Below are positions 1-4,902 of a stretch of 26,232 nt of DNA, piece by piece (within the stretch, counting starts at the first letter, position 1; each line of letters opens with the position of its first letter). The notes under the pieces are model-generated. The model was given only the letters and a program-made list of their open reading frames with translations. It did not search any database and was not told where the DNA came from. Origin of the DNA: a virus; the IMG/VR virus record IMGVR_UViG_3300005664_000070, positions 1 through 26,232 of that record; one strand, written 5' to 3'. A program made the position numbers and the translations under genes.

Positions 1-208
1 AGAAACATTCTAATGGTTTCCAATCTCTACTATGTAGAGAATTTATTTCATCTATATAATCATAGGTAATTTGTTTACCGTAAGTTCGTTGATGTTTGGA
101 TTTCCTACATGATTTAGTCTTACCTATATAGATTTTATTAGGGTCTCCATAGCAGTTAGTTACTAAATAGATCTTGGTAATTTGGGAAGTTTCTTGTATA
201 TTTATCAC
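1..208 (-). CDS. GIY-YIG homing endonuclease, N-terminal part (cut by window edge)
   Basis: This is the N-terminal 69 residues of a GIY-YIG nuclease; the rest lies outside the window. The signature is plain: IYLVT, then YIGKT, then a basic stretch (CRKSKH) and KPLECF, which carries the family's catalytic Glu. By hand count 54 of 69 residues match the complete GIY-YIG gene at 13344-14057. The start is a GTG at 208: it aligns with an internal ATG of the other copy, and an in-frame stop lies a few codons upstream. It sits just downstream of the DpdA-like gene, separated by the hairpin at 251-270 that the other copy also carries. Role (family knowledge): free-standing homing endonuclease that spreads itself among related phages. 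GIY-YIG assignment is secure; total length unknown. Confidence 0.85.
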   Translation of the reverse strand, partial: MINIQETSQITKIYLVTNCYGDPNKIYIGKTKSCRKSKHQRTYGKQITYDYIDEINSLHSRDWKPLECF

Positions 209-232
209 GGTAATAATTTATTTATTGGCGTA

Positions 233-277
233 TATAAATATTACTTCCTTAAGCCTCTATTCAGAGGCTTTTATTTT
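233..277. repeat. 45-bp repeat flanking GIY-YIG gene, copy 1 (contains hairpin)
   Basis: This stretch matches 14083-14127 at 44 of 45 positions by hand count. It contains an 8-bp perfect stem (251-258 with 263-270, sequence AAGCCTCT) and a T-rich tract on the plus-strand side. In both copies it lies between the end of an upstream gene and the start of a GIY-YIG gene, and the upstream gene's last codons (reading KIKASE) lie inside it. I read it as part of the mobile cassette. Confidence 0.85.
251..270 (-). terminator. Hairpin overlapping the 3' end of the DpdA-like gene
   Basis: Perfect 8-bp inverted repeat with a 4-nt loop. The stop codon of the upstream gene is inside the hairpin. On the minus strand (gene direction) there is no U-run after the stem, whereas the plus strand has TTTTATTTTATTT after it. 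It would therefore be a better terminator for plus-strand transcripts. In the gene direction it may act as a weak terminator, a 3'-end stabiliser, or an element controlling the downstream endonuclease. Confidence 0.5.
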
Positions 278-1069
278 ATTTACTATATTTCTAAAACAAT
301 TTATATTAGATAATATATTTTCCAAACATTCTTTATCAATATCTAAATCAAAAAATTGTTCCATTTTAGATTTTGATTTAGTTTTAAAATTTTGTTCTGT
401 ATATAAACCTTCTTCAATAGCTTTAATAATTGGATTAGAAGTATCAATACTATTTACTATTCCAGGTAATGCCTGATTATAATAATGGAATTCTGTCACA
501 TCTGTTGCTCCAAGAAGATGGATCCAATGATGTTCTTTTATTATATTTTTATTCCATAATCTTCGAATAAGTGTAATTCTACCAATTTTTGCTTTTTCAA
601 TTTTATCTTCAACGGAACCAACTTCATTTTGATAAGCAATAGAAGAGTGATTAAAAGCAAAGTGCCTATATCCTAAATCGATGCATTGTTGGTATAGTTG
701 TTCTATTTCAGAAAATGTTTTACCTTGTAAAACTACCATTAAATTTAAATGGGGTTCTAATACTCCTGTTTTTTTAAGAGACATCCAATATTTAGCATCT
801 TTAGCAGTAGCTGTAGCATCGTTCCAAGTATCTACAGGAATAAAAATTGTTGGTTTTGATTGTTTAATAAGTTGGATTAATTCTTGAATGGTAGGTACTT
901 CACCTTCAAATAACCCACAATCCAAAATTTTCATCCCATTATATTCATCCATAAACTTTTTATACTTGTCATATCTAGTATAGAAGTAGGGGAGTATATA
1001 TTGAAAGTCATTATACTCTTTACTTTTCTCCAATAAACATAGAGGAGACTCATGTGAAATTAATATCAT
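257..1069 (-). CDS. dpdA: TGT-like 7-deazaguanine transglycosylase (DpdA-like)
   Basis: Member of the tRNA-guanine transglycosylase (TGT) fold. These enzymes exchange guanine for a 7-deazaguanine base; phage DpdA proteins do this in DNA. Visible landmarks: ILDCGLFEG with Asp50 (position of the TGT general-acid Asp, normally DSGGFQ), IPVDTW with Asp80, VVLQG with Gln115 (TGT VQGG), HLLGATD at 184-190, and SIDTSNP with Asp209 at the nucleophile position. At 270 residues it is about 100 shorter than bacterial TGT and has no CxCxxC...H zinc site, which argues against an ordinary tRNA TGT. It is the last gene of an operon that begins with queD, which makes a precursor of the same base. Its last six residues (KIKASE) lie in a repeat shared with another locus. 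DNA rather than tRNA as substrate is inference. Confidence 0.75.
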   Translation of the reverse strand: MILISHESPLCLLEKSKEYNDFQYILPYFYTRYDKYKKFMDEYNGMKILDCGLFEGEVPTIQELIQLIKQSKPTIFIPVDTWNDATATAKDAKYWMSLKKTGVLEPHLNLMVVLQGKTFSEIEQLYQQCIDLGYRHFAFNHSSIAYQNEVGSVEDKIEKAKIGRITLIRRLWNKNIIKEHHWIHLLGATDVTEFHYYNQALPGIVNSIDTSNPIIKAIEEGLYTEQNFKTKSKSKMEQFFDLDIDKECLENILSNINCFRNIVNKIKASE

Positions 1070-1071
1070 AA

Positions 1072-1197
1072 TTATTTATATTTAAATATGTAACCTTTTA
1101 TTGCTTCTTTAGCCACAATCAATGCTTTATCTTCACAACTAACTTCAACATCGAAATCAACATTAAAACTTACTTTACCTTGTATATTAAATTCCAT
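1072..1197 (-). CDS. 41-aa hypothetical protein
   Basis: A short open frame that exactly fills the gap between the 2H phosphoesterase (stop at 1200) and the DpdA-like gene (start at 1069), two nucleotides from each. The peptide starts MEFNIQGKVSFNVDFDVEV, alternating hydrophobic and polar residues as in a beta-hairpin, followed by an Ala/Lys-rich likely helix (DKALIVAKEAIKGY). I do not recognise it. The tight fit and normal ATG make it a likely real operon member. Confidence 0.6.
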   Translation of the reverse strand: MEFNIQGKVSFNVDFDVEVSCEDKALIVAKEAIKGYIFKYK

Positions 1198-1199
1198 AA

Positions 1200-1754
1200 T
1201 TATATTTCTATTTCATCTTGGGTTCCATCTGGTTTACTATAAACTGCATAACTAGGTTGTAAATTAAATTGTGTTCCTTTATATGCGTCTACATATTTTT
1301 GTCCTTCTCCTTTTTTCAAATAAGCAATCGTCATATGAGGATGATATTCATATGGAGATTCTTTATGAGGAAATGACTTAAGTTGTGTATTTATTTTTCC
1401 TAATACATTTCCTCCTTTAATTTTATAACCAACATCAAATTTAAGTACATCATATTCGGGATTATCAAAAATTGACATATTTGATACCATAAAAGTTTTA
1501 TCTAAATCATGACCATTTATTACTCTAGTTATATCATCTGTTGTTACTTCTGGATGTAAACCAAATAATAAAGTACAATGAGGTTCTGATTCTAAACCGA
1601 ATGATGGGTCTTCTTCGTCAACGTAAATATCTTCTTCTTTTATAGCACTATGGATTTTAAATATTTGAGGGAAATTAAAATATAACATAGCACACCCGAA
1701 TTCATGATTGTGATCTTCTAGAAGTAGTTGATTAATTGCTTTTCTTATATCCAT
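1200..1754 (-). CDS. 2H phosphoesterase (2'-5' RNA ligase/phosphodiesterase superfamily)
   Basis: Two HxT motifs define the 2H superfamily and both are present: H59-C-T61 in EPHCTLLFG and H140-M-T142 in YHPHMTIAY, about 80 residues apart as expected for the bilobed fold. Members hydrolyse or ligate 2'-5' or cyclic phosphodiester bonds in RNA or cyclic nucleotides; the phage anti-CBASS protein Acb1 belongs to this superfamily, as do enzymes that repair RNA ends. The gene lies between queD and the DpdA-like gene, two nucleotides after a 62-aa gene, so it is probably co-expressed with a putative DNA-modification pathway. The N-terminus (MDIRKAINQLLLED) is a short amphipathic segment ending in an L-x-E site, faintly like the tag on three other small proteins here. 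Family is clear; substrate is unknown. Confidence 0.8.
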   Translation of the reverse strand: MDIRKAINQLLLEDHNHEFGCAMLYFNFPQIFKIHSAIKEEDIYVDEEDPSFGLESEPHCTLLFGLHPEVTTDDITRVINGHDLDKTFMVSNMSIFDNPEYDVLKFDVGYKIKGGNVLGKINTQLKSFPHKESPYEYHPHMTIAYLKKGEGQKYVDAYKGTQFNLQPSYAVYSKPDGTQDEIEI

Positions 1755-1755
1755 A

Positions 1756-1944
1756 TTAAATAGTTATTGATGTTTTATTTTTATTTTGGATACAAGCCAT
1801 TGTATTATATGAATATAATATATCACTAACATTATATTTTTCTTCCAAAATATATTCCATATTTTCACGAGTTATATAACCTTCGTTTTGTAAAACATAT
1901 AATACTCTCATAACATCTTCCAGTAGTGGTGTTGTATTTTTCAT
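1756..1944 (-). CDS. 62-aa hypothetical protein
   Basis: No family recognised. The N-terminal two thirds (LLEDVMRVLYVLQNEGYITRE) reads as helices and could be a small winged-helix-like fold (NEGYITRENMEYIL), but this is only an impression. Its start overlaps the stop of the upstream 134-aa gene by 4 nt (ATGA), which suggests translational coupling inside the queD-dpdA operon. Confidence 0.55.
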   Translation of the reverse strand: MKNTTPLLEDVMRVLYVLQNEGYITRENMEYILEEKYNVSDILYSYNTMACIQNKNKTSITI

Positions 1945-2345
1945 TCTCTAATTAATTTATGATTATCCCATTTGAAGTTACCAATAATTACCCCACTTTG
2001 TATTATACAAGTATTTATAATTTCAAATAAATTAGAAAGATATATTTCTATCATATATCCATCAGGATGAATTAATTCAGCCCAATCTTGACTTTTACCA
2101 GATCTATAACCATTTATTTTCCATCCACTTCTAAATGTTTCTTTTATAATATAAATGGGGAGATTTTGTTTTTCCCAATATGTATTTCCCCAATTTTCAA
2201 ATGATTTAGGAATTTCCCCCCTTTGAGTAAATTTAGATAAAAATCCTGTTTTAGGGATATTTGGAGATGAAGGATATTTATCCCAAATTTTTAAAAGAAA
2301 TTCATCTTCTTCTAATATATAACAAGGTTCATATAACTTTTTCAT
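1941..2345 (-). CDS. 134-aa hypothetical protein
   Basis: No family recognised. The protein is soluble and rich in Trp, Tyr and Gly, with a motif-like middle (FRSGWKINGYRSGKSQDWA) followed by a hydrophobic beta segment (GYMIEIYLSNLFEII). It begins 2 nt after queD and overlaps the next gene by 4 nt, so it is firmly part of the operon. A role in deazaguanine metabolism cannot be read from the sequence. Confidence 0.6.
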   Translation of the reverse strand: MKKLYEPCYILEEDEFLLKIWDKYPSSPNIPKTGFLSKFTQRGEIPKSFENWGNTYWEKQNLPIYIIKETFRSGWKINGYRSGKSQDWAELIHPDGYMIEIYLSNLFEIINTCIIQSGVIIGNFKWDNHKLIRE

Positions 2346-2347
2346 AA

Positions 2348-2812
2348 CTATTCTTGGTAAATTCCACTATTTTTTGTATTCTCATTACATTCAACTTTAA
2401 CGACTTTAACTCTTCCACCTTCAGTTTTAGAAAATACATCATTAAATTTATTGAATACTAATTTAGCAGCACTTTCTGCTCCAATTCTATCCATAGTAAC
2501 TAGTTTAAGTAATCCTAATTCTTCCATCATTTGAAATGATTCTAATTGTGGATCATCTTTTTCAATAATTGTAGTATGATCAAACATATCATTTAACCAA
2601 TCTTTCAAACCATTTCTACTAAATAATCCAAAATCAACTATCCAATTCATTTCATCAAGTTGATCTTCTTCATAACCATCTTTGGAAGCAAACCATACTT
2701 TAAATGTAAATGCATAACCATGTAATAATTGACAATGACTATGTTGCGCTTTGTGTTGTCTAATAGCAACAGAAAAATTATCAAATATTTTTGTTGATAA
2801 ATAAGTACCCAT
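2348..2812 (-). CDS. queD: QueD-like 6-carboxytetrahydropterin synthase
   Basis: QueD converts dihydroneopterin triphosphate to 6-carboxytetrahydropterin, the second step from GTP to preQ0, precursor of queuosine and of 7-deazaguanines in DNA. Family landmarks: Cys27 in HCQLLHGY (QueD nucleophile position), FDHT with Asp78-His79 (catalytic pair), and VKVECNENTKNSGIY with Glu141 (pterin-binding Glu). Two of the usual three zinc histidines differ by my alignment: the canonical HGH is HGY (Tyr33), and the first ligand aligns with Ile17, though His20, His24 and His26 are nearby. It is the first gene of the operon that ends with the DpdA-like enzyme. It could instead be another PTPS-fold pterin enzyme, but the TGT-like partner favours QueD. 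FolE, QueE and QueC are not in the window. Confidence 0.8.
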   Translation of the reverse strand: MGTYLSTKIFDNFSVAIRQHKAQHSHCQLLHGYAFTFKVWFASKDGYEEDQLDEMNWIVDFGLFSRNGLKDWLNDMFDHTTIIEKDDPQLESFQMMEELGLLKLVTMDRIGAESAAKLVFNKFNDVFSKTEGGRVKVVKVECNENTKNSGIYQE

Positions 2813-2818
2813 ATTTTG

Positions 2819-2850
2819 TATTTTTATAATTTTATTTATATGAATATATG
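2819..2850 (-). promoter_or_regulatory. Candidate promoter of the queD operon
   Basis: Just after the hairpin behind the endolysin gene, the minus strand reads CATATATTCATATAAATA before the queD start. It shares ATATATTC with the repeated element upstream of the polymerase gene and of the 43-aa ORF, and contains TATAAATA, the T4 late-promoter word. In DNA this AT-rich such words arise by chance, so the call rests mainly on position between a hairpin and an operon start. Confidence 0.35.
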
Positions 2851-2851
2851 A

Positions 2852-2870
2852 AGGCCTTTATAAAAGGCCT
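2852..2870 (-). terminator. Hairpin after the endolysin gene
   Basis: Perfect 8-bp stem AGGCCTTT/AAAGGCCT with a 3-nt loop, between the endolysin stop and the queD start. The downstream tract in the gene direction (TCATATATTC) is AU-rich but not a true U-run. It probably separates the lysis unit from the queD operon. Confidence 0.55.
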
Positions 2871-2896
2871 AATAATTTTTAATATATTTTCTGAAT

Positions 2897-3547
2897 TTAG
2901 ATATATTCTGCGTATTTTAACGTTAGTTGAATTCGTTCTTGTAAACCTTTATCTCCCCCATTTATTATTTTAGATATTCTTGTTATAGTAGGAATACTAA
3001 AACCTCTATCACATTCTTTCCATACTCCAAATCTTGAAAAGTAGAACATAGCTGACTCGAATGCATATTTAGTTGCTACTAAATCTGGGTTTGTCATTAT
3101 TTCTGGATCTTTTATAAATTGTGAGAATAATAAATAATTTGCTCTACCTGTTAATTGTAACGCCCCTCTTCCTCTAAATTTCCAACCATCTCCCGACGCT
3201 TCATTTCCATTACCATTTTGATTTGCATAAACAAAATTAGCAATAGCTTCAGGTTTACTAACATATTTTTTAGCAAATTCTAATTCTTGTGGAGAAATTA
3301 CTTTATCTTTATTTAAATCGAAATCATGTTTAAATACTCTAGCTAAATTTTCGGCACTTTTATAGTTTAAATTTTCAATAAAAGTATCAAAATGACCAGT
3401 CTCATGATTTACTTGTGCAAAAAAATGTGCTCCCCTTTGAAGAGTTGTTATTTTAAGATATTTACATGTTGCTTTAAAAGTATTTTTACCAAATACCCCA
3501 TCAGGTTCTACTCCACTATTTTTTTGTAATATCTGTAACGAATTCAT
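2897..3547 (-). CDS. Endolysin, GH19 chitinase-like, with EF-hand loop
   Basis: Cell-wall hydrolase for host lysis. The N-terminus (SGVEPDGVFGKNTFKA) resembles the first repeat of a peptidoglycan-binding domain. The catalytic part has the GH19 pattern: FFAQVNHETGHF with candidate proton-donor Glu49, IENLNY at 57-62, and FRGRGALQLTGRANY at 124-138. Between them is a 12-residue loop, D77-L-N-K-D-K-V-I-S-P-Q-E88, that fits the EF-hand calcium pattern (acidic/polar at 1, 3, 5, 9 and Glu at 12; the usual Gly at 6 is Lys). No signal peptide is visible, so export should depend on a holin. It is the last gene of the lysis cassette, starting 2 nt after a 78-aa membrane protein. Confidence 0.88.
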   Translation of the reverse strand: MNSLQILQKNSGVEPDGVFGKNTFKATCKYLKITTLQRGAHFFAQVNHETGHFDTFIENLNYKSAENLARVFKHDFDLNKDKVISPQELEFAKKYVSKPEAIANFVYANQNGNGNEASGDGWKFRGRGALQLTGRANYLLFSQFIKDPEIMTNPDLVATKYAFESAMFYFSRFGVWKECDRGFSIPTITRISKIINGGDKGLQERIQLTLKYAEYI

Positions 3548-3549
3548 AT

Positions 3550-3786
3550 TTATTCTTCTTTTGATTTATTAATATTAGACCAAGTAGTTAAACCAAATAA
3601 GGCTGCAATAAAAGTATAGTCAATTGTTAACACCATTTCTAATTGTGTTAAATTACCTATCATTAACCATTTAGTATGAACAATAATTACTAATACAATT
3701 AACACGAATGCTGTTAATTTTTTAGAGCTAAATCCTTCCTCATTAGTTTTAAAACTATTTAATAAATCATCTAATATTTTTTTCAT
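3550..3786 (-). CDS. Small two-TM membrane protein, holin candidate
   Basis: 78 residues: a short charged N-terminus (KKILDDLLNSFKTNEEG), two hydrophobic segments at about 26-42 (AFVLIVLVIIVHTKWL) and 55-69 (TFIAALFGLTTW), and a charged tail (NINKSKEE). Size, topology and position directly upstream of the endolysin (2-nt gap) fit a class II holin or spanin-like accessory. No specific family recognised; the function is inferred from position. Confidence 0.6.
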   Translation of the reverse strand: MKKILDDLLNSFKTNEEGFSSKKLTAFVLIVLVIIVHTKWLMIGNLTQLEMVLTIDYTFIAALFGLTTWSNINKSKEE

Positions 3787-3798
3787 TTTTAAATATTA

Positions 3799-4410
3799 TT
3801 AAATAGATTTTTCTTCTTCATCTTCTTCAAATATATTATCGAATGAAGAATCTATTTTGTTAGTAATTTTTTTCTCAAATAAATTTAGTATATTATCCCA
3901 AAATTTAAATATTCTTGGTTTATATCCATATATTTTTTCATGATTTTCTCCTATACTATGAATTTCAAATCCACAAGATAATAACCAAACAGTTCCTTGT
4001 AAACTTATACTAATAATATAAACCCAAGTTAGACCCATTATTTCTATCATTATTGAGGTTACTGCTAATAAAAATGACAATAACGATACTCCTAATAATT
4101 TCCATAATGTTCTATATAACTTATAAGATTTTACATAAGGTTTTTTTGGATCTTTAAATTTTATTAAACTCTTATGTTTAGCTGCTTTTAAACCTGTTAT
4201 CAAATCCGCTAGGCACACAATACAGAACATTATAGTTCCTACTACCATTAACACTATTGGAATTAATAAATGTTTAAGATCAGTACCATTCGTTAAAGTT
4301 TCAAACCAAAAAGTTAAAGGCATAGATAATGAAAACGACAACAATGATAATGTTCCTTTTTTAAATGATATTATTTTCCATATAAAATTTAACGCTACTT
4401 CAAATACCAT
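3799..4410 (-). CDS. Membrane protein of the lysis cassette, probable holin
   Basis: 203 residues with about four membrane segments (around 18-36, 49-70, 104-124 and 126-146) and a long, charged cytoplasmic tail ending EEDEEEKSI. The piece CLADLITGLKAAKHK, followed by a basic stretch and KLYRTLWKLLGVSLL, resembles the D-x-x-TG...KA region of large phage holins common in Bacteroidota phages. Its start overlaps the preceding 151-aa membrane protein by 16 nt, and a 12-nt gap separates it from the 78-aa membrane protein. It is probably the pore former or an accessory; which of the three membrane proteins is the holin cannot be decided here. Confidence 0.6.
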   Translation of the reverse strand: MVFEVALNFIWKIISFKKGTLSLLSFSLSMPLTFWFETLTNGTDLKHLLIPIVLMVVGTIMFCIVCLADLITGLKAAKHKSLIKFKDPKKPYVKSYKLYRTLWKLLGVSLLSFLLAVTSIMIEIMGLTWVYIISISLQGTVWLLSCGFEIHSIGENHEKIYGYKPRIFKFWDNILNLFEKKITNKIDSSFDNIFEEDEEEKSI

Positions 4411-4850
4411 TTAATAAAATTTATTGATATTAATAATATTATTGTGCTTAATAATATAGGTTGGATGAAAATAACATATGTTATAGCAGGAAATGATATT
4501 AATAATGATATTAAAGATATAACTTGAACAAATGAAAACATACAACTTATTATTTTCGTACTCAAACAACTAGTATATCGAAAAGACTTAAATATAAAAA
4601 ATAAACTAAATATAAATAATTCTAAAGTTGCAAATAATGGGAACCAAAACAATAAATAATTATCCCCTTTATTAGTAATTATTGCTGGATTGTTGCTATC
4701 TGGTATAAAAAAAGAAATTATTTCTATAAATGATACTAAAAAAATTACCAAAGCCATAGAATAATCTAATGTTTTTTTATTACTTATCTCTTTTACTTTA
4801 GTGATTAGAGAAGTTTTCTTTCCTAAACTTTCATCAGGTATTCTGGGCAT
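4395..4850 (-). CDS. Multi-spanning membrane protein, first gene of the lysis cassette
   Basis: 151 residues with about four hydrophobic segments (roughly 31-49, 66-87, 98-118, 122-148) after a basic N-terminus (KVKEISNKKTLDY). No known family recognised. It overlaps the next gene by 16 nt, which implies coupling, and is the promoter-proximal gene of the unit after the nrdJ terminator. It could be an antiholin, a superinfection-exclusion protein or a holin partner; sequence alone does not decide. Confidence 0.6.
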   Translation of the reverse strand: MPRIPDESLGKKTSLITKVKEISNKKTLDYSMALVIFLVSFIEIISFFIPDSNNPAIITNKGDNYLLFWFPLFATLELFIFSLFFIFKSFRYTSCLSTKIISCMFSFVQVISLISLLISFPAITYVIFIQPILLSTIILLISINFIKWYLK

Positions 4851-4885
4851 AATATGTAGGTTAAAATATACTCATAAATATATAA

Positions 4886-4902
4886 GGCCCCTATAAGGGG
4901 CC
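4886..4902 (-). terminator. Terminator after nrdJ
   Basis: 6-bp GC-only stem GGCCCC/GGGGCC with a 5-nt loop followed by TTATATATTTAT on the minus strand. It lies between the RNR stop and the first lysis gene and is the likely end of the nrdJ transcript. The AT-rich stretch right after it (TTATATATTTATGAGTATATTTT) could hold the lysis promoter. Confidence 0.65.

Follow-up and report, generated by a model that had tools for sequence, protein, structure and literature searches.

A tightly packed run of six genes at the left end of a phage genome fragment raises the question whether this phage modifies its own DNA with 7-deazaguanine bases and, if so, which of the six genes take part. The window, i.e., the whole stretch of 26,232 bases analysed here, is an IMG/VR virus fragment, and the rest of its gene content gives it the look of a T4-like tailed phage, with genes for a DnaB-like helicase, an exonuclease, a UvsX-like recombinase, a single-stranded DNA-binding protein, a ribonucleotide reductase and a baseplate hub protein. 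All six genes are located on the minus strand and lead from a queD family gene (2348–2812) via genes for proteins of 134 aa (1941–2345), 62 aa (1756–1944), 184 aa (1200–1754) and 41 aa (1072–1197) to a dpdA-like gene (257–1069) encoding 270 aa. The arrangement given in the initial annotation was reproduced in full, with a gap of 2 nt, an overlap of 4 nt and gaps of 1, 2 and 2 nt when counted from queD.

Among the genes of the 7-deazaguanine pathway, the window holds queD and dpdA alone, and the contig ends just after dpdA. The approximately 250 bases that are left 3′ of dpdA contain the start of a partial ORF directly downstream (2–208, minus strand), whose GIY-YIG-like beginning (IYLVTN...IYIGKT) occupies the place usually held in relatives by queC and a small gene described below. 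This ORF is possibly a homing endonuclease gene inserted into the modification cluster. Furthermore, strong hairpins followed by T-runs were observed on the plus strand at 251–270 and 2852–2870, flanking the six genes of the minus strand; in total, 8 terminator-like sites were counted at positions 1–4900, compared to 1.1 expected.

A short DpdA with a predicted TGT fold

The Pfam scan of the 270-aa protein yielded no match above the cut-off, and the two PHROG families that were matched (phrog_19058 and phrog_20335) are both without a function. The NCBIfam equivalog model of DpdA (NF041059) was found with an E-value of 0.023 and 13.5 bits, short of its curated cut-off of 200 bits, and a sequence-profile search of the PDB listed the DpdA structure 7ui4 with an E-value of 0.4, below chance matches. 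Homologues covering 97–99% of the length were detected by tblastn in Campylobacter phages of the genus Firehammervirus (32%) and in Flavobacterium phage immuto (28%), and at least 544 relatives were confirmed by a profile scan of IMG/VR. The NCBIfam DpdA model was matched by 14 of 57 family members at E ≤ 0.05, the best one at 2.7e-5.

Invariant residues in these 57 members include D50, D80, Q115, H184, G187, D209, P213 and K231. D50 and E55 sit in the motif used to fetch the loci, and their conservation is therefore partly due to selection; Q115, H184, G187, D209 and K231 had no part in the fetching. An hhalign comparison with six DpdA proteins of the 9g type and E. coli Tgt brought the catalytic motifs into register, at a probability of 2–3% with shallow alignments, and was used for residue mapping only. 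D50, Q115 and D209 align with the E. coli Tgt motifs DSGGFQ (D89), IIQG (Q187) and FDCVMPTR (D264), and the order of the motifs VQG, LLG and DxxxP together with the catalytic Asp pair agrees with that of E. coli Tgt. Since the profile alignment is of low probability and weak by itself, this mapping, already proposed for the three residues in the initial annotation, rests on motif order and fold. The Tgt zinc motif CxCxxC (+ His) is absent from the 270-aa protein, in which five scattered cysteines were found, in agreement with the earlier claim that a zinc site is missing. D209 is the probable nucleophile and D50 the probable general acid/base, and D80, Q115 and the HLLG motif are probable elements of the base pocket.

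An AlphaFold model of the 270-aa protein, calculated from 57 sequences, reached a pLDDT of 93.6 and a pTM of 0.91. In a Foldseek search against the PDB, the best matches were all TGT structures (2.7e-7), and the DNA preQ0 insertase DpdA (7ui4) followed at 9.8e-7. The Z values obtained with VIA-align are tied, at 17.5 for TGT (232 residues aligned) and 17.1 for 7ui4 (231 residues, rmsd 3.6); 7ui4 is longer (413 residues) and shares 15% identity with the window enzyme. Among viral models, M4SLA5 of Cellulophaga phage phiST was the second-best match (TM 0.84/0.87). Also among these fold matches was the 464-aa protein R9TGF0 of Vibrio phage nt-1, which is presumably the published DpdA2. Judged by its predicted structure and the matches of its family, the 270-aa protein belongs to the TGT superfamily, in line with the fold first suggested for it, and it is a member of a short, divergent DpdA subfamily. 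The proposal of the initial annotation thereby withstood the structural check that had been named there as able to refute it.

Unannotated short dpdA-like genes were also noticed in phiST (L084:10291–11070) and in MA9V-3 (41897–42691). phiST encodes FolE, QueD and QueE, and no QueC match was found in it; this gene set would be in keeping with an earlier intermediate, e.g., CDG, being inserted.

Pathway genes in related loci and a QueD variant

QueC is encoded in 77 of 80 related IMG/VR loci. A full downstream flank, defined as 7.5 kb or more on the downstream side of dpdA, is available for 43 loci, which contain genes for QueC (43), QueD (41), FolE (39) and QueE (38), all four being present in 36. 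The closest phages, L002, L005 and L006, with DpdA identities to the window enzyme of 70%, 67% and 53%, each carry the complete set of folE, queD, queE and queC. In the relatives, folE, queE and queC are placed just beyond what would be the left edge of the window, i.e., where the initial annotation had suggested looking for them. Because most of the related viral loci with full flank carry the rest of the pathway, a phage 7-deazaguanine DNA-modification system is very likely present in the phage of the window, and we infer that it has folE, queE and queC as well.

In L002, an ORF resembling class II glutamine amidotransferases (L002:10244–10879) overlaps the 3′ end of queC. Reading the two as a split Gat-QueC and thus as a predictor of dG+ was dropped after a direct comparison with the Gat-QueC of phage 9g was negative. 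Since the amidotransferase-like ORF is absent from the other loci, no base was predicted from it.

The 154-aa product of the queD family gene was assigned to the 6-carboxytetrahydropterin synthase family by a PTPS match in Pfam (E-value 2.6e-13) and a match to phrog_2389 "QueD-like" (5.6e-33). Two of the three zinc-binding histidines are replaced (H16→I and H33→Y, E. coli numbering) and C27, H31, D70, H71 and E110 are kept. The earlier statement that this QueD makes a preQ0 precursor therefore has to be qualified. Ile or Phe and Tyr at the two positions are also found in the QueD proteins of L005, immuto, phiST, phi38:2 and Iggy, and the five other residues are strictly conserved across the variants compared. 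In total, 108 of 118 scored matches to the QueD profile in the loci have this form (HGY), and one of the canonical matches is that of E. coli itself. The HGY form is not restricted to phages, as it also occurs on a Rhizobium plasmid. In the sister phages L002 and L006, a canonical QueD takes the place of the variant, an argument for the two forms doing the same job.

Genes between queD and dpdA and a small protein next to dpdA

The proteins of 134, 62 and 41 aa had been put forward as candidates for new components, and their near-absence from the 175 loci searched speaks against this. For the 134-aa protein, which has a weak match to phrog_2475 and no assigned function, no homologue was found in any other locus. 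Homologues of the 62-aa protein, likewise without an assigned function, exist solely in the two closest phages L002 and L005, and the only relative of the 41-aa protein in the set is the longer, 62-aa homologue in L002. The 184-aa gene product is a 2H phosphoesterase according to its PF13563 match (E-value 1.4e-6). A 2H phosphoesterase gene with two HxT motifs is located just upstream of dpdA in the window (1200–1754), in L002 (6614–7171) and in L006 (7078–7614). As such an enzyme is encoded in only 3 of the 80 related loci (L002, L006 and L049), it probably stands outside the modification pathway; relatives were also found in phages of Maribacter and Microbacterium. Since cyclic-nucleotide defence signals can be degraded by 2H enzymes of phages, a counter-defence role is possible for the enzyme of the window. 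As far as the evidence goes, the transcription unit carries the three small proteins and the 2H enzyme as lineage-specific passengers.

A different small gene lies directly 3′ of dpdA in many related loci. It codes for a protein of 60–80 aa with the consensus SLYDYLGKAAGxxLGKxV...RxVSNPKYxGKVMLYPKxFLxxYF and adjoins dpdA or queC, as exemplified by L005:8809–9027. The gene is absent from the window, whose contig ends before the expected place. A profile of the protein matched in 59 of the 80 loci and in 35 of the 43 with full flank. In L076 (7992–9023) and L082 (6711–7733), the small protein forms a fusion with the C-terminus of DpdA, and in L019 (2125–3252) it is joined to the QueC N-terminus.

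A reverse scan starting from the SLYDYLGKAAG protein yielded 76 loci not seen before. A short DpdA is encoded in the fetched flank of 71 of them, and 75 have one or more pathway genes. By name, 16 of the 76 loci are on contigs that the first scan had already given, and without these the counts are about 55 of 60 for the short DpdA and about 59 of 60 for a pathway gene. Among the distinct copies, 101 of 102 have a pathway gene in their locus, and most are located within 100 nt of dpdA, queC or queE or are fused to them. An exception is the 59-kb record L145, which has the SLYDYLGKAAG protein without dpdA. Among 50,697 phage records, the protein was found in immuto phages only, 0.9 kb from queC, and among 84,980 species genomes on a single MAG contig, which may be viral and in whose 17-kb stretch no pathway gene was found. 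CP220, phiST and several dpdA loci with full flank gave no match.

Pfam, PHROG and PDB sequence scans revealed no relative of the protein. Its model (pLDDT 92.7) has the order helix-helix-strand-strand-helix, and no trustworthy match was obtained in a fold search. The SLYDYLGKAAG protein is a better candidate component than the three small proteins of the window; the initial annotation thus named the system correctly, but chose the wrong candidates for its components. Linkage and fusion suggest a function as a partner, and we consider it rather probable that the short DpdA branch has in this protein a dedicated partner not described before. Its role could be, for example, that of a subunit recruiting the enzyme to phage DNA, setting its specificity or channelling the base from QueC to DpdA.

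Comparison with known systems and proposed function

The Campylobacter phages CP220 and CPt10 (Firehammervirus), which have dADG DNA, share the DpdA homologue with the window (32% identity over 97%). For CP220, PMC8306585, citing Crippen 2019, reports that dADG takes the place of 100% of dG in its DNA. The short DpdA profile has exactly one match in CP220 (E-value 2.4e-63), the gene gp056 (NC_027997.1, 54675–55451), which is annotated as hypothetical and falls into the short DpdA family. By this homology, gp056 is a candidate for the ADG-inserting enzyme of Firehammervirus phages. Crippen et al. reportedly proposed in 2019 a post-replicative insertion, with the enzyme not named. Like the relatives of the window, CP220 has FolE, QueD, QueE and QueC, but its pathway genes are scattered, its QueD is canonical, and the SLYDYLGKAAG protein of those relatives is missing.

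The cluster of Flavobacterium phage immuto (Immutovirus), described as queuosine-like, contains a short DpdA (28% identity) annotated as such, the zinc-variant QueD (42–46% to that of the window) and, as in the relatives, FolE, QueE, QueC and the SLYDYLGKAAG protein; it differs in also having QueF. Phages 9g (Gat-QueC and DpdA, dG+) and nt-1 (DpdA2, dPreQ0) combine a TGT-fold enzyme with preQ0 pathway genes as well, whereas their DpdA proteins (317 and 464 aa) were not matched in the sequence search with the window enzyme, and 9g has Gat-QueC and a canonical QueD instead of the zinc variant. The 9g DpdA inserts preQ0 into DNA when expressed in E. coli (PMC6884629), a result in favour of this mechanism for the superfamily.

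The best explanation, with a probability of about 0.87, is that the window contains the upstream portion of a phage cluster for 7-deazaguanine DNA modification, whose short DpdA exchanges guanine in DNA. The analysis shows the fold, the conserved catalytic residues, the family and the linkage to the pathway. QueD would convert the FolE product to 6-carboxytetrahydropterin, and QueE and QueC, encoded in relatives beyond the window edge, would lead via 7-carboxy-7-deazaguanine and its amide ADG to preQ0. The short DpdA would then use the TGT mechanism to put the free 7-deazaguanine base in the place of guanine in the phage DNA, the presumed target. In this mechanism, D209 would attack the glycosidic carbon, giving a covalent DNA-enzyme intermediate from which guanine leaves, and the incoming base would displace the enzyme, D50 acting as general acid/base. 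Either dPreQ0 or dADG is the most likely product. Replacement of guanine in their own DNA is a known defence of phages against bacterial DNA-cutting enzymes, and here the modified base probably shields the phage DNA from host nucleases.

Three other explanations were weighed. A queD-like gene that lost its function along with its zinc site, so that host preQ0 is used and dpdA alone is needed, would account for the two replaced histidines, and a phage DpdA on its own can be provided with preQ0 by E. coli (PMC6884629). Such a loss is unlikely in view of the five strictly kept residues, the majority status of the variant in the clusters (108/118) and the canonical QueD in the same slot of L002 and L006. 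Even less probable is a 270-aa enzyme that modifies host or phage tRNA with queuosine- or archaeosine-like bases and does not act on DNA. The shared Tgt fold and the rank of the TGT structures above DpdA in Foldseek, although with tied Z values, fit such a target. However, the enzyme is without the Tgt zinc motif and shorter than E. coli Tgt (270 vs 375 aa), its homologue is the only profile match in CP220, the DNA of which contains dADG, and the layout of the cluster is that of phage DNA-modification loci.

The tight packing and the overlaps make co-transcription of the six genes probable and would also be expected if they formed one functional unit with the three small proteins and the 2H enzyme as new components. 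We regard this as highly improbable, as nearly all of the 80 related loci lack the small genes; the 2H enzyme, encoded in 3 of them, has relatives in phages of Maribacter and Microbacterium. The preferred assignment to an upstream part of a DNA-modification cluster places the window in the known class of phage 7-deazaguanine systems, which it joins with a divergent short DpdA. The subfamily represents a variant of this class, probably with a new partner protein.

With these results, the unannotated gene gp056 of CP220 is tied to a large short-DpdA family in uncultured, mainly Bacteroidota-like phages, and the short DpdA can be tested as a candidate for the enzyme behind the complete guanine replacement in the dADG-containing Campylobacter phages. 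The zinc-altered QueD of the short-DpdA clusters raises the question how catalysis proceeds at its rebuilt metal site. Furthermore, the small protein, with its strict linkage, gives access to the recruitment of DpdA to DNA and on why replacement is complete in some phages, whereas few bases are modified in others.
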